64,000 nucleotides of DNA from Phorcus lineatus (Eukaryota; Mollusca; Gastropoda; Trochida; Trochidae), in assembly GCA_921293015.1 (NCBI GenBank), contig OV121092.1, forward strand, positions 10,112,001 through 10,176,000, given 5' to 3'. Numbering within the stretch: the stretch's first letter is position 1; each line of letters opens with the position of its first letter. Below, piece after piece: positions 5,131 to 52,282 of the stretch. A model generated the notes under the pieces. The model was given only the letters and a program-made list of their open reading frames with translations, was not told the DNA's origin and made no database searches. The translations under genes were made by a program, and so were the position numbers.

Positions 5131-6701
5131 TCAGAAGTTTATAATCCAACAAAAAAGCAATACCAGTTTTGTAGACTTGCGTTTGGACTGACATCCAGTC
5201 CACCCATACAGAACAGCATCATTAGCATACATGAGGATGGTTTTCAGACTTCGCATGATAGGACAGTGAAACTACTCAAGGACTCAATATATGTAGATGA
5301 TCTAGTGGCAGGGCCCAATGAACAAGATGAAGCTGTAGAACTCTACAAGGAAGCAGGTTTCAGTTTCAGAAAATGGAGATCAAATAATAAGTCTGTTCAA
5401 CAAGAAGTAAAGGGGTCACATTATGTTGACAATGAAGGTGAAGGTGAAGTTAATGTTCTTGGCATTATTTGGCACTCACATGAGGACAATTTTAGCATAT
5501 ACTTGAATAGACTTGTGGAATATGGAAGAAAGCTACTAGTCACAATGAGGTCTATTCTCAAGATATCAGCAAAGATATTTGACCCATTGGGTCTACTTTC
5601 TCCTTTTACAGTTCGGTGTAACGTACTATTCCAAGAACTTTATAAGGAAAAGGTAGCATGGGATGTGGAACTTGCTGGGAAGTTGAGAACATGGTGGGAG
5701 TCTTCGTTTGATGACATTGAGCTGTTATCAAGTATTCACATACCACGAAGCTTCAGCGTTGGGAGACACGAGGTTATCAACAGACAGTTACACGGGTTCT
5801 GTGACTTATTGGAAAAGGCGCATGCTGCAATTGTATATCTGCGTACAAAATACAGTGACAATGAGGTGAAGGTCCAGATTGTGGCTTCCAAAACAAAGGT
5901 CTCGCCATTGAAGAAACAGTCCATTCATAGACTTGAGCTACTGAGAGCAGTGTTGCTTGTCCATTTGATGAACACAATTATCAAATCATTTCAGACCATT
6001 GATTTCAAGATCCATAGAAATTTCTACTGGACCGACTCATTCAAATTCCTCTGTTGGATAAAAAAACCACTCTTAAATAGTGGAAACAATATGTCCAGCA
6101 TCGAACTCAGCAGATTCATCAAGTAAGCAAACCTGAGGAATGGAATTTCTGTCCTGGATGAATCAACATTGTCTTTTTCTACCGACACGTGGTTGCACAG
6201 GGAAGCAGTTGTTGAAACATACGGAATGGACCATTATTCCTGCATATGGCCCCATTTCAACTAGTTTTGAAAGCAAGACAGCAGATGAGGAAATTGTTAA
6301 AACACCAAGAATGTTGGTGCATTCACTGTTAGCTACTGAAGATGTCACAGTGAACCTTGAGAACATTATGGACACTGACAAAGACAGTAGTCGTTCAAAG
6401 TTAATCAAAATAACAAGCCTTGCTCTGAAGTTTCTTGCTTTGTAATAGGTTCGACAAGAAAGGTCCAGATTGATGCACAGGACATCTGAAATGCTCTGGA
6501 TTCAATCAGTTCAAATATCAGCATTCCAGGAACAGCTGCATTTCCTTCAAAATAATCCCAGGAAACACTTCAACAATACAAGAACATCGAGTTAGAGTTG
6601 AATGATAAAATCATGCGCTGTAGGGGTCGCATCAAAGCGGACATTTCAGAGAGTTCCAAGTGTCCCAATCTGTTGCTAAACAACCACTCCTTTACGGCAC
6701 T
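5131..6701 (+). pseudogene. BEL/Pao-type retrotransposon polyprotein relic (RT, RNase H, start of integrase)
   Basis: The longest open stretch (about 5131-6126) carries the reverse-transcriptase catalytic motif YVDD near 5290. Next comes the FDPLGLLSPFTV block typical of the BEL/Pao RT-RNase H connection. A GFCD-type first RNase H aspartate follows, then an LELLRAV block and a YWTDS motif. These are the expected order and spacing for this superfamily. After a stop at 6126 the similarity continues in other frames, with the RGCTGKQLL region near 6190 and the CRGRIK zinc-finger or integrase leader near 6610-6700, so several frameshifts and stops are present. The RT N-terminus, gag, protease, integrase core and LTRs are not seen. 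A SINE-A cuts off the right side at 6702. It is an inactive fossil fragment. Confidence 0.8.
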
Positions 6702-22633: not shown

Positions 22634-22975
22634 CATCCCACTACATCAGCGCAATTGAATCCGCTGACCCAGCTCCTTCCATATAACCTGATCTCCTTCG
22701 AGCCAAATCCCTCGTGCGACTGGCGCGGCTTGATGTTCGTTGCTCTGCTCACCTGTTATTGCTTCAGCCAATGAAATGCCGTTATCCAAGGAGCTTGAAG
22801 CTACTCATTTGAAGTTAACGGAATTTTCCTTCCGGGTTGTGCCGCTGTTGCTGGATGCGAGTCGTCTCCTTGGCTGGTTAGATGGCTAGCGATACGAGGC
22901 TTTTGGCCTAAAGGATATCAGGGTATATGGAAGGAACTGGATCAGGGGATTCAATTACACTGATGAACCAGGATG
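22634..22975 (-). mobile_element. Family-C MITE with exact 9-bp TSD
   Basis: A 342-bp element begins CATCCCACTACATCAGCG and ends ...ACCAGGATG, with imperfect TIRs that continue inward (ACCTGATCTCCTTCGAGCC against GGCCTAAAGGATATCAGGGT). AATGGACAT is duplicated exactly at 22625-22633 and 22976-22984. The 9-bp TSD places family C with Mutator-like elements. Confidence 0.9.
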
Positions 22976-26466: not shown

Positions 26467-26766
26467 CATCCTGCTATATCAGTGTATATATGAATCCGCT
26501 CTCGCTTCTTCCTAATACCCTGATCTCCTTCAAGCCAAAACCCTCGTATCGCTATCTACCTAACCAGCCAATGAGACGACTCGCATTCAACAACGCACAG
26601 CCCGAATGGACAAAATCCCTTGATTTCAAGCTAGTAGCTTCAAGCTTCTTAATTAACGGCATTTCTTTGGCTGAAATAATATCAAGCCGCCAGCTAGCTA
26701 TACGAGGGATAAGCCCGAAAGAGATCAGGGTGATGGCGGATTCATTTACGCTGATATAGCAGGATG
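26467..26766 (+). mobile_element. Family-C MITE, 300 bp, both TIRs intact
   Basis: CATCCTGCTATATCAGTGTATATGAATCCGC at the left is mirrored by GCGGATTCATTTACGCTGATATAGCAGGATG at the right. The inverted arms extend inward to about 80 bp (CCCTCGTAT / ATACGAGGG). An open frame spans most of it on each strand only because the element is short and palindromic. The TSD is not conserved. Confidence 0.88.
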
Positions 26767-34541: not shown

Positions 34542-34979
34542 TTAAGCATTAAGTTGAGGTTTTAACATTTTAATGAAAAAGTCTTCTTTCAACTGACGCA
34601 TTATTCTATCATTTGTATCCATTTTGTAGAATGGGAATATTTTGAATTTAATGTCTTTGTCTTTTGCACATGTATCCAAGTGGGCACTAAGTGGTATACA
34701 ACGTGTCTCAGGACATTTTATTTGTTGTTTATGGACGCGGACTCTGTCTCTGAGGCACTCAGTTTGTCCAATATATTCACCGGAACACCCTTGACATATA
34801 ATGACATATATGACATGTTTTGCTGCACAATCAATATTGGAGCGCACATAAAATCTCTCGTTTCTGTTTATGAATTTTATACTGGAATTTTCAAAAATAT
34901 ATGGACATGTTCCACAATTACCTCTGTTACATTTAGAAACTCTGTACTCTGGAGAGGTAGTGTTTATATATATATATAT
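34542..34979 (-). pseudogene. Penelope-like element, GIY-YIG endonuclease domain fragment
   Basis: The minus-strand frame is open from the TA tract at about 34979 to the stop at 34542, about 145 residues. It begins with a cysteine cluster (CNRGNCGTCPY) typical of the linker before the endonuclease. Then comes a conserved HVIYVIICQGCSGEYIGQTE block (the GIY-YIG core), with the catalytic Arg in LRDRVRVHKQQI and a following His-rich region. This order is characteristic of Penelope-like retroelements, whose endonuclease nicks DNA for target-primed reverse transcription. The reverse-transcriptase part is absent, so this is a 5-prime-truncated copy with no promoter of its own. The visible frame has no internal stop, so the insertion may be fairly young. 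An isolated host GIY-YIG gene is less likely, given the linker and the repeat context. Confidence 0.8.
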
Positions 34980-35104
34980 ATTCTAATAATTATGTTGTAT
35001 ACATTTTAACAACAATAAAAATCCATTTTGTTACTGTGTCTAGATTTAGAAACCTATGGGTAGTAAAATTTATCTCCCTTTTCCTTTTCCCTCTTTTATT
35101 TCCT

Positions 35105-48290: not shown

Positions 48291-49519
48291 TATTATGTTT
48301 TCTTGTTAAATGTTTTTTTAAAAAAACAGTCATATAAATGTACATAAATATTAAGTAAATTACCTACTAACAATGCATGTTTTTCTTTGTGTCTGCTGTC
48401 AAAATGTTTAAAACATTACCTTTGATTCTTTGGAGCAAGCCAATGTCCGGTTTCTAAATTACGAATTTAACTCGTTTATAGTCACTATACTGAAGTTTAA
48501 ATTTCAAGAAAGTACTGTTCAGAAACAATCACTATTTCTCGAAAAAACGAGATCATTTAAAGGTATTATATGTTTAACTTGAACAACCTACTCTGTGCCC
48601 CTTTAAGCCTAAGTAAACCCTATGATCTTCGTTGAAAGCTCAGACTTAAGTTGTCAGGGAAGTAAAGCATTAAATGAATAGGAACTATATCGATACAGGA
48701 ACTGGCGAATTCAACCACCTAAAACTCATTGTTTTTCCTCGTGAATTGTGGTTTGCCAACCGAAGACATTTGAAATGTACAATGATTCTCTATAGCTTTG
48801 CCAATTATCGACTACCACTTTCGCGATAAGTAGTTTAGTTTAAACATATTTTATTCAGCAGAAAAGGATGAGGAACAAGTTATCCAACTTAGAGTACCTT
48901 CTCCTTAGTATGTACATAAATTATTTACATTTTTACAAAGAAAGATGACAGATGATTGACAAGACAGCAGTGAAAAAGTAAAGAGCTAACAAATAGTTGA
49001 TATGTTGATGATATGCTATACAAATCTCTTTGTCTCACGTATGAACATTTCCACTGATTTAAATACATCGATATTTTGACATGGTGATAGGTCTGCACTT
49101 CCTTCTAACAAAACTTTAAGGTTAACTGTAATACCTGCTAATGTGCAAATGCGCTCTACAGATGAGTAGTTAAAGTAAAAGAGAATATAACAATCTATTA
49201 AGTATTTGCCACACTAAAATCAACGACCTACCGAGATCCATGGAAGTTAAGAAGCTCATCCTGAAACTGCTTAACTGCAAGTCGTTTCTTATCAAATATT
49301 TATAAGCCAAAAGCAAAAGTTTGTGTTGTCAAATATCAATAAATTCCTATATGGATAGTTCCAATACACTACTGTAAATTAGAGACAGGGGCTTCTACAT
49401 TTGTTCGTTTTCGGCTTAGTAATGGCCAAAACAGTCTTTTTTAAAAATGCTTTTTCTTTGTAGCTTTAATTGAATGTATCTTAAGAAACTGATGCTTTTC
49501 CTAATTACATGTTAGAATC
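48291..49519. other. AT-rich spacer, no gene
   Basis: Nothing recognised on either strand. Confidence 0.4.
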
Positions 49520-49966
49520 ATTCGGGTTGTGCCGCTGTTGCTGGATGCGAGTCGCCTCATTGGCTGGTCAGATAGCTAGCGATACGAGGCTTTTGGCCTA
49601 AAGGATATCAGGATGGGGGCGTCCTGGGAAGCAGAATGAATAGCATTAGTATAATCCCTTTGATGTTATAATCTGTGATTTCAAAGGATTAAAACACTGG
49701 GTAATGTGAAAAACTGAACTGCAAAATGCATTAAGGGTATGAAATAAACTATAATGTTTCAAACAAATTTACTCACTCACTCAGTTACTTGACTTGTCTT
49801 ATACAAACACCTAATATCTGACTGAGCTTTCACTCAAAAAAATCCGTTAGTGATGACCTGATGAGTGATGATTAATTTACTCACTGAGTGATGTTCACTA
49901 TTTTATTACATAATTGATTAGTTTACTCACAAAGTTCTACTTAGTCTTATATAAACATCAATAATG

Positions 49967-49974
49967 TATAAATA
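49967..49974 (+). promoter_or_regulatory. Candidate TATA box of the MULE transposase gene
   Basis: TATAAATA lies about 41 bp upstream of the ATG at 50008, inside the left end of the element. In AT-rich DNA this may be chance; position is the only support. Confidence 0.35.
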
Positions 49975-50007
49975 TTTTCAAACGCCAACAACGACATCAG
50001 TTCCACA

Positions 50008-51897
50008 ATGGCTCTTGCTCAGTTACCACAAGTTAATGTTAAGTTTATTCCCACTTCCCGTGGTGGTAGATACCTGTGTGTTGATGGATATATGTATAGA
50101 CTAAATAAGAGGAAAGCTGATGAATGGATCTTCTGGAGATGTCTCTCCAAAGACTGCAATGCCACAACATCAACTATTAACGACGTTGTGTCTAAGCCAC
50201 CCACAGCACACAACCACGAACCTGTGCATAATGACATTAAGGTATGTATTGTATTTCACTCGATTTATAACAATCCATGAAAAAAATAAAGTTATAAAGT
50301 TATAAAAATCCATTAGCATTCATGTAAAGTAACTTAAACCATGCACTGTAAGTATGGGATGACATTATATCTTTTTTATTTAATTTACAGATTCGACAGA
50401 CTTTATGTCGCCTAAAGTTGAAAGCAAGGTTAACATTGCAGCCGATGCCAAGCCTATTCAACGAGGAATTGTTGTCACTTCGAGATGGAGCCTGGACAGA
50501 TGACAACCGGACATTGATCCAGAACATGCCAACATACCATGGGGTGAAAAGTCAACTCCACGCCACGAGACGATCTGTCTTCCCAGCCATGCCGACACAT
50601 AGAGCTGAAATCCAGATACCAGAGGAGTACCAGAGGACAGATGCAGGGGAGAGATTTCTCTCCATCGATGATGGCGATGACGAAAAGATTCTTGGATTTA
50701 CAACAAAAAACAACCTTGAACACCTGTGTGCCACTGATGTCGTATATGGAGATGGTACATTTTACGTGTCACCAAACTTGTTCCTGTAACTCTATACGAT
50801 CCATGCAAAGGTTGCTGACCAGATGTTCCCCTTGGTCTTCTTCCTTTTGCCCAATAAGACCACAGCGACGTACACGAGAGCCTTCCGCCTTCTGAAACAA
50901 CTATCAGCTACCTATGGTCTGCAGTTGGCACCCAGTATAATACAGGTACATAAATGTCTTTCTTATATATATTAATATAATATTTTAATATATTTCAGTG
51001 AATTTATTAATGAGTAAATTATTTAACGTAACTGTCCCAAATTATATTTTTAAAGATTATTTGGATTATTTGGATTATTAATTTATGCCTTTTTGTTTCC
51101 CTTTTAGATGGACTTCGAGGTCGCAACCAAGACTGCTGCCTTGTCGGTTTTCCCAGGATCTACTTGGAAAGGATGCTTTTTCCATTTTGCCCAGTGCATA
51201 TGGCGAAAGACGCAGAATGTCGGTCTGCAAGTCGAGTACAGACTGAACCAGGACATTGGACGTTTTATACGACGCTGTGCTGGTCTTCCTTTGGTTCCTG
51301 TGGAAAATGTAAGTATACTTCATAATTGTATTTTTTTTATTTAAAAAAAAAAAATAATAATAATAAGTGTATTTCACAATCAAATACTATAAAACTATAA
51401 AAACTATAACTTAAACACCTTCCATATAATATTTCCTATTATATTCATATATATTCTTATCTTATCTTGACTGTTTCAGGTTGAAGATGTATGGGTGGAT
51501 GTCATTGCCGACATGCCAAACGACCCGAGATGCTGGCAGGTCGCAGACTACATGACGATCAACTGGGTGGAAGGAGACATTTCTTCATGGAACCACCATG
51601 ACACAGACGGACCGAGGACCAACAACAACTTGGAGGGGTGGCATGGGAGACTGAAGAAGATTGTTGGGAAAGCCCACCCCCAACGTCTTTGAGATGGTAA
51701 AATTCTTGCTGGAGGAACAGAAGCTAAACGAAATAAAGATGTTACAGTACAGTGCTGGCCAGCGACTCCCACCAAGAAAGAAGAAATACAGGGAACTGGA
51801 GAGGAACCTTGCCTCCTTGAAAGACAGACTCGCCCAAGGACAACTTGATTTGTTAAATTACTTGGATAGGGTTTCCCATGCAATCAAATTAGCTTAA
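50008..51897 (+). pseudogene. FLYWCH-MULE transposase, four exons, one stop and one frameshift
   Basis: Exons 50008-50241, 50391-50945, 51108-51308 and 51480-51897 are joined by introns with GT...AG ends (GTATGT/TTACAG, GTACAT/TTTTAG, GTAAGT/TTTCAG). All three junctions are in phase 0. Exon 1 encodes a FLYWCH zinc finger, with a Phe-Ile start, GYMYRLN, W-x-C, a second Cys and the HNH ending. Exons 2-4 encode the MULE catalytic fold. They carry YGDGTF (first Asp, about residue 199), MDFE followed by GCFFHFAQCIWRK (second Asp, about 265), and NNNLEGWHGRLKK (Glu, about 382). Two lesions break it: an in-frame TAA at 50787-50789, and a +1 shift in the five-C run at 51677-51681, after which homology continues in the next frame to the TAA at 51895. 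Total length without lesions is about 469 codons. It would cut and paste the element through its TIRs. Both lesions are single-event changes, so the copy is recently dead or the C run is a sequencing error. Confidence 0.85.
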
Positions 51898-51913
51898 GTA
51901 ACAAGATCCTCAA

Positions 51914-52082
51914 ATGAATGTCCATGTGTAACTAGTCTGTTTTATTAAATTTACTTATATTAAGTGCTATGTCAGATGCCAATGTGTATCTAGTCTGTAT
52001 TATTTAATTTGTTTATCATAAGTGCTATGTCAAATGTCCATGTCTAACTAGTATCAATGCAATGTATTTCTTCATCAATAAA
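51914..52082 (+). promoter_or_regulatory. MULE 3-prime UTR with ~60-bp repeats and a poly(A) signal
   Basis: Three diverged units carry (G/C)CCATGTGTAACTAGTCTG-like and AAGTGCTATGTCAAATG-like blocks near 51917, 51979 and 52037. AATAAA follows at 52077-52082, about 180 bp after the stop codon and still inside the element. Confidence 0.6.
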
Positions 52083-52282
52083 TTGTCTCTGTCGAATACA
52101 TGTTCGTCTTTTTACCACTTCACATTTTCATATCACCCATGTGCCTGTAATCACATAGACCGCCTATTGTTAGCGACCACTAATCCTTACAGTTAATCCC
52201 CCTAAGGCAGACTCTGTGTTTGTACTGTTCTGCTTCCCAGGACCTAACCATCAGGATACATGGAAGGAGCGGATGCAGGATG

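Follow-up and report, generated by a model that had tools for sequence, protein, structure and literature searches.

A Mutator-like DNA transposon with a FLYWCH zinc finger in Phorcus lineatus and its intron-containing and intron-less relatives

Introduction

Mutator-like elements (MULEs) have been reported from every genome analysed in a study covering 36 molluscs together with 3 annelids (PMC10294476). The length of MULE inverted repeats is given as 14–500 bp in PMC6446971. In the same paper, the Phantom elements (group 20) are characterized by a FLYWCH finger, a SWIM finger or none, by 8–10-bp duplications, and by ends of 18–613 bp or none at all. The Muta elements are placed there with Phantom.

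The FLYWCH domain was predicted in 13 of the 14 Muta families of Aedes (PMC5225508). According to this paper, Muta1 and Muta5 of Aedes aegypti have two and three predicted exons, respectively. Muta1 carries D214, D283, H307, and E419, which corresponds to a spacing of 69 (D-D), 136 (D-E), and 24 (D-H), and mutation of the triad abolished its transposition. The Phantom-like element Tm1-A of the nematode Meloidogyne codes for a predicted FLYWCH-MULE protein of 496 aa and is about 2.5 kb long with introns (PMC3169594).

Here, we describe a MULE located in a 64,000-nucleotide stretch of the Phorcus lineatus genome (assembly GCA_921293015.1, contig OV121092.1, positions 10,112,001 to 10,176,000 of the forward strand), which is hereafter called the window.

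Results

Termini, target site, and host repeat

The element spans positions 49615–52249 of the window (Table 1). Its left end, GGGGGCGTCCTGGGAAGCAGAA, and its right end, read on the opposite strand as GGTTAGGTCCTGGGAAGCAGAA, form 22-bp inverted repeats that are identical at 18 of 22 positions. When 200,000 pairs of 22-mers were drawn at random from the window, 18 matches were reached in 4 of them. The element is bordered by an exact 8-bp direct repeat, ATCAGGAT; the chance match rate of random 8-mer pairs is 5.2e-5. The left flank of the element matches seven other places in the window. In six of the seven, the match runs on like the right flank of the element (by eye; the exception is the copy at 782). 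The empty site is therefore known, since the host repeat crosses the insertion point uninterrupted in these six copies. The earlier note had placed the boundaries by the inverted repeats, the duplication, and the resumption of the host repeat on both sides, and had described the element as nested in a repeat. Both readings agree with these data.

At the insertion locus, the host repeat is partial as judged by eye. It consists of a portion from about 49519 to 49614 and about 25 bases from 52258, and its left arm is missing. Copies of the repeat are located in the window at 22833, 48149, 54123, and 2962, and on the reverse strand at 26608, 42343, and 782. Its left and right arms look complementary by eye, e.g., in the copies at 26608 and 42343, which suggests a longer foldback element.

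Elsewhere in the window, the motifs of the 331-codon open frame at 5131–6126 (+) resemble part of a BEL/Pao-type polymerase, and those of the 146-codon open frame at 34542–34982 (−) a Penelope-type GIY-YIG endonuclease. The CTCACTCACTCAC-type repeat tails found in the window are, we assume, reminiscent of vetigastropod snails.

Table 1. Features of the element and its flanks, in window coordinates.
Feature	Position	Strand	Remarks
Host repeat, portion left of the insertion	49519–49614	+	
Target site duplication ATCAGGAT, left copy, 8 bp	49607–49614	+	empty site also seen
Terminal inverted repeat, left, 22 bp	49615–49636	+	
TATAAATA, possible core promoter	49967–49974	+	position only
Exon 1, FLYWCH zinc finger	50008–50241	+	Pfam PF04500, E 2.1e-10
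Intron 1	50242–50390	+	phase 0, GT-AG
Exon 2	50391–50945	+	first catalytic Asp 50751–50753; in-frame TAA 50787–50789
Intron 2	50946–51107	+	phase 0, GT-AG
Exon 3	51108–51308	+	second catalytic Asp 51111–51113; conserved His 51183–51185
Intron 3	51309–51479	+	phase 0, GT-AG
Exon 4	51480–51897	+	catalytic Glu 51633–51635; frame break between ~51655 and 51692
58-bp tandem repeat, ~2.3 copies	51917–52052	+	3′ of the coding part
AATAAA, possible polyadenylation signal	52077–52082	+	
Terminal inverted repeat, right, 22 bp	52228–52249	−	outer 8 bp unlike those of the left end
Target site duplication ATCAGGAT, right copy, 8 bp	52250–52257	+	
Host repeat, portion right of the insertion	52258–52282	+	end approximate, by eye

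Gene structure and protein domains

The predicted gene is composed of four exons with 42–49% G+C and three introns with 18–24% G+C. The sequence TCAGTT at 49997 could serve as the transcription start site. The spliced frame, with X in place of the stop, was compared with Pfam. It matched PF10551, the MULE/IS256-type DDE transposase domain, with an E value of 2.2e-12 and a score of 47.7 bits (cut-off 27.6), over model positions 2–98 of 99. It also matched PF04500 (FLYWCH) with 36.8 bits (cut-off 23.6). In the predicted spliced protein of about 467 aa, the FLYWCH domain occupies residues 13–70 and the MULE domain residues 196–292. In an exon-by-exon search, the MULE exons scored singly under the cut-off. 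The catalytic D, D, and E occur in the expected order with a spacing of 66 (D-D), 117 (D-E), and 24 (D-H). The earlier note was right in proposing a MULE with a FLYWCH finger, four exons, and three phase-0 introns; the finger is N-terminal, and the predicted introns have GT-AG ends.

Among solved structures, exon 1 gave five matches, one of which was 2rpr, a zinc finger protein of the FLYWCH type (E 5.8e-4), the other four being unrelated proteins. The spliced protein matched 2rpr with an E value of 0.0068 and an aldehyde dehydrogenase with 0.071, the latter taken as a chance match.

The protein has the D, D, and E residues that characterize Mutator transposases, the second D being followed by the conserved His, and the 8-bp duplication lies within the 8–11 bp typical of this superfamily. 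Long terminal inverted repeats, which are common but not required in Mutator, are absent. The 22-bp ends do not exclude the element from the MULEs because they fall inside the published range of 14–500 bp (PMC6446971). The 8-bp duplication and the 22-bp ends would also suit a hAT-type element.

Elements of the hAT type likewise have 8-bp duplications and short inverted ends. A hAT origin was nevertheless rejected as extremely improbable: the protein fits the MULE model almost over its full length and has a FLYWCH domain in addition, and no hAT family was present among the Pfam matches at E values up to 1.

Copies in the source genome and damage in the window copy

The source genome (958 Mb, 74 contigs) was searched with the whole element. 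At least 67 pieces, which are not to be equated with copies, matched it; this is a lower bound, because 40 of the 193 candidates were scored. The check for other copies that the earlier note had suggested thus had a positive outcome. Stretches were fetched around the matching pieces (n = 39), and 40 loci, including the window, were scanned for ends. L002–L008 were skipped, being the same places with other flanks, and L033, a single site read both ways, was dropped from the count of loci with both ends. Both ends were present in 12 of the 40 loci. In 8 of the 12, the window included, the ends are bordered by an 8-bp duplication with no more than one mismatch, which is exact in 6. No duplication was found in the remaining four (L009, L011, L014, and L016); L016 is visibly rearranged. 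Of the eight loci with paired duplications, including the window, six have GGGGGCGT as the outer octamer of one end and GGTTAGGT as that of the opposite end. The left 22 bp were found unchanged at one end in four of the other seven such loci and with a single difference in one more.

Two copies, L009 and L010, are open through all four exons and retain the splice sites. In L009, exon 2 is shortened in frame by a deletion of 36 bases. The frame of L010 continues to 485 codons in the absence of the usual final stop, and this copy is devoid of the usual 5′ terminus. Other copies are damaged: exon 3 of L011 contains a stop, the frames of L014 are lost, and L013, L015, and L022 have deletions. In L011 and L012, the start codon is missing owing to a common deletion. 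The flanks of these two copies displayed no similarity to each other at an E value of 1e-5; a perfect duplication is present in L012 and absent from L011. A version without a start codon thus appears to have been mobile, which suggests that it was assisted by a transposase encoded elsewhere. The 3′ flank is common to L017 and L018 (99% over 510 bases), and these two are probably a duplicated stretch and not two insertions.

In the window copy, exon 2 is interrupted by an in-frame TAA and exon 4 by a frame break of one base (Table 1); the earlier note mentions neither. The TAA is missing from all eight other copies compared, and the extra base of exon 4 from all four copies with an undeleted exon 4 (L009–L012). 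The exons of these copies are 98.5–100% identical to those of the window. Judging by its sequence, the window copy is dead as a gene, since the stop and the frame break prevent it from encoding the full transposase. At most, a transposase from another copy could move it as a passenger.

Alternatively, the stop and the frame break may be assembly or base-calling errors in an intact copy. The break in exon 4 adjoins a C-rich run, and such runs commonly attract single-base errors; it is also not present in other copies. We regard this explanation as unlikely, since it has to account for two separate lesions in a single copy, one of which is a stop codon inside an otherwise aligned exon.

A further rival reading of the locus is a transposase-derived host gene, i.e., a domesticated FLYWCH factor. 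Animal FLYWCH domain proteins have been described as derivatives of Mutator transposases (PMC10027918). In the present case, domestication has a negligible probability and was rejected, because the sequence occurs in many copies with transposon ends and target duplications, and the window copy is broken. As a transposon, the family was probably mobile in this genome recently. This is indicated by near-identical copies free of both breaks, by the ends that they have in common, and by the 8-bp duplications at 8 of the 12 loci in which both ends are present.

Introns in diverged relatives

The exon 3 query gave at least 150 matches in the source genome, with 150 of the 615 candidates scored; the genome holds many relatives. 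No relative was found among the 12 pattern matches obtained by scanning viral_contigs with exon 3, among the 251 obtained there with a three-row alignment, or among the 314 obtained by scanning genome_contigs with the alignment.

Two relatives, L027 and L028, have 62 and 65% amino-acid identity, and their introns are placed as in the window gene. Third codon positions differ more often than second ones (230 versus 79 of 393 in L027 and 227 versus 69 of 375 in L028), as expected under protein constraint. Two introns of L027 are 45 and 50% identical to those of the window, the same as shuffles. The predicted introns are therefore supported by introns at the same places in diverged relatives from the same genome. 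L025, L026, L031, and L042 were also compared at the protein level, and of these only L025 was used further. It displays weak constraint (dN 0.13, dS 0.21, 133 codons) and in-frame stops, and it looks decayed.

The junctions were surveyed in 22 loci, namely 20 fetched exon 3 matches together with L027 and L028. Intron-sized gaps were observed in 7 loci for junction 1 and in 10 loci each for junctions 2 and 3; the loci outside these counts were incomplete at the junction, gap-free, or unreadable. Introns that could be placed at both ends read GT-AG. As the protein alignment ends short, some junction positions deviate by a few bases. L027 is cut at the third junction and retains the acceptor there. 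L048 is a mixture of two neighbouring elements. L055 has no intron 2 and lacks some coding sequence, and it keeps introns 1 and 3; hence, not every locus is all-or-none for introns.

Intron-less relatives and the tree

Eight loci (L058–L065) are gap-free at junctions 2 and 3, where no leftover sequence is present. No intron-sized gap was found at junction 1 in the five of them in which it was readable. Their longest methionine-started frames have 344–458 codons. The single frame of L058 matches both FLYWCH and MULE. L062 gave a MULE match only; FLYWCH was not found in it, and its exon 1 side is unassigned. Several of the eight loci are present in many equal-scoring copies, alongside the three-intron families. 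In copies compared by eye, inverted ends and 8-bp duplications were clear in L049, L050, L053, and L064, and not in L054.

An unrooted tree was calculated for 17 rows, i.e., L010 and 16 of the 22 surveyed loci. The mixed locus L048, the fragment L052, the near copies L055 (of L056/L057) and L059 (of L058), and L066 and L067, the junctions of which were not interpretable, were left out. A single branch parts the three-intron rows from the intron-less ones, with a support of 93/96 (not starred, drawn open). One change was obtained in 90% of 200 bootstrap trees, in which near-copies inflate the clustering. L062 forms a long branch, and the tree program warns that long branches meet there. Since one branch of this unrooted tree separates both kinds, a single event, or a single block of events, would suffice to part them, by either gain or loss. 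This reading is weakened by the loss of one intron in L055, by the long branch of L062, and by the unstarred separating branch.

Discussion

The inverted ends, the 8-bp duplication, the FLYWCH and MULE domains, the D-D-E residues, the introns common to relatives, and the near-identical copies together identify the element at 49615–52249, at the sequence level, almost certainly as a Mutator-superfamily DNA transposon that moves by cut and paste and, by its architecture, is of the Phantom/Muta type. In an element of this kind, a transposase translated from the spliced transcript would bind the ends via its FLYWCH finger, the DDE core would excise the element, and a staggered insertion would generate the 8-bp duplication.

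There is an even chance that one MULE lineage within a single animal genome acquired all three introns together or lost all of them at once. A gain would mean intron acquisition in the own gene of a DNA transposon. A loss would mean that a spliced transcript had been copied back into a cut-and-paste transposon. In plant CACTA transposases, repeated loss of all introns has been argued, and the authors invoke reverse transcription (PMC4158355). The Phorcus lineatus genome offers a natural comparison, with diverged MULE families that have common intron positions beside intron-less relatives, and the question of intron loss raised for plant CACTA could be tested here in an animal MULE.

In the finger, the duplication, and the end length, the window element has the features described for Phantom, to which it may belong by descent. 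No title naming this element was found among the matches listed for open-licence papers. The MULE-Mollusca and MULE-Cg entries in Table 1 of PMC6446971 are likewise mollusc MULE transposases; compared by description, they have no zinc finger listed there, whereas the window element has FLYWCH. Tm1-A resembles the window element in its size of about 2.5 kb, its introns, and the combination of FLYWCH (5–66) and MULE (197–294) in 496 aa, which is close to the 13–70 and 196–292 found here. It differs in its foldback-type ends and mostly 9-bp duplications.

Muta1 and Muta5 have in common with the window element the N-terminal FLYWCH domain, the DDE order, the D-H spacing of 24, and an intron-containing gene. 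Their duplications are 8 or 9 bp long, compared to 8 bp here. The Muta1 and Muta5 proteins are of comparable size (504 or 554 aa versus about 467 aa). The D-E spacing is shorter in the window element (117 versus 136 in Muta1). The ends of Muta1 and Muta5 are long and internally repeated (151 bp in Muta5), in contrast to 22 bp here, and two or three exons are predicted in them versus four in the window element. The earlier note had called such an element uncommon. This does not hold, because its architecture is that of the published Phantom/Muta MULEs, and many relatives occur in the same genome. The window element is an ordinary one; with it, a family with short ends and four exons joins the FLYWCH MULEs known from animals.
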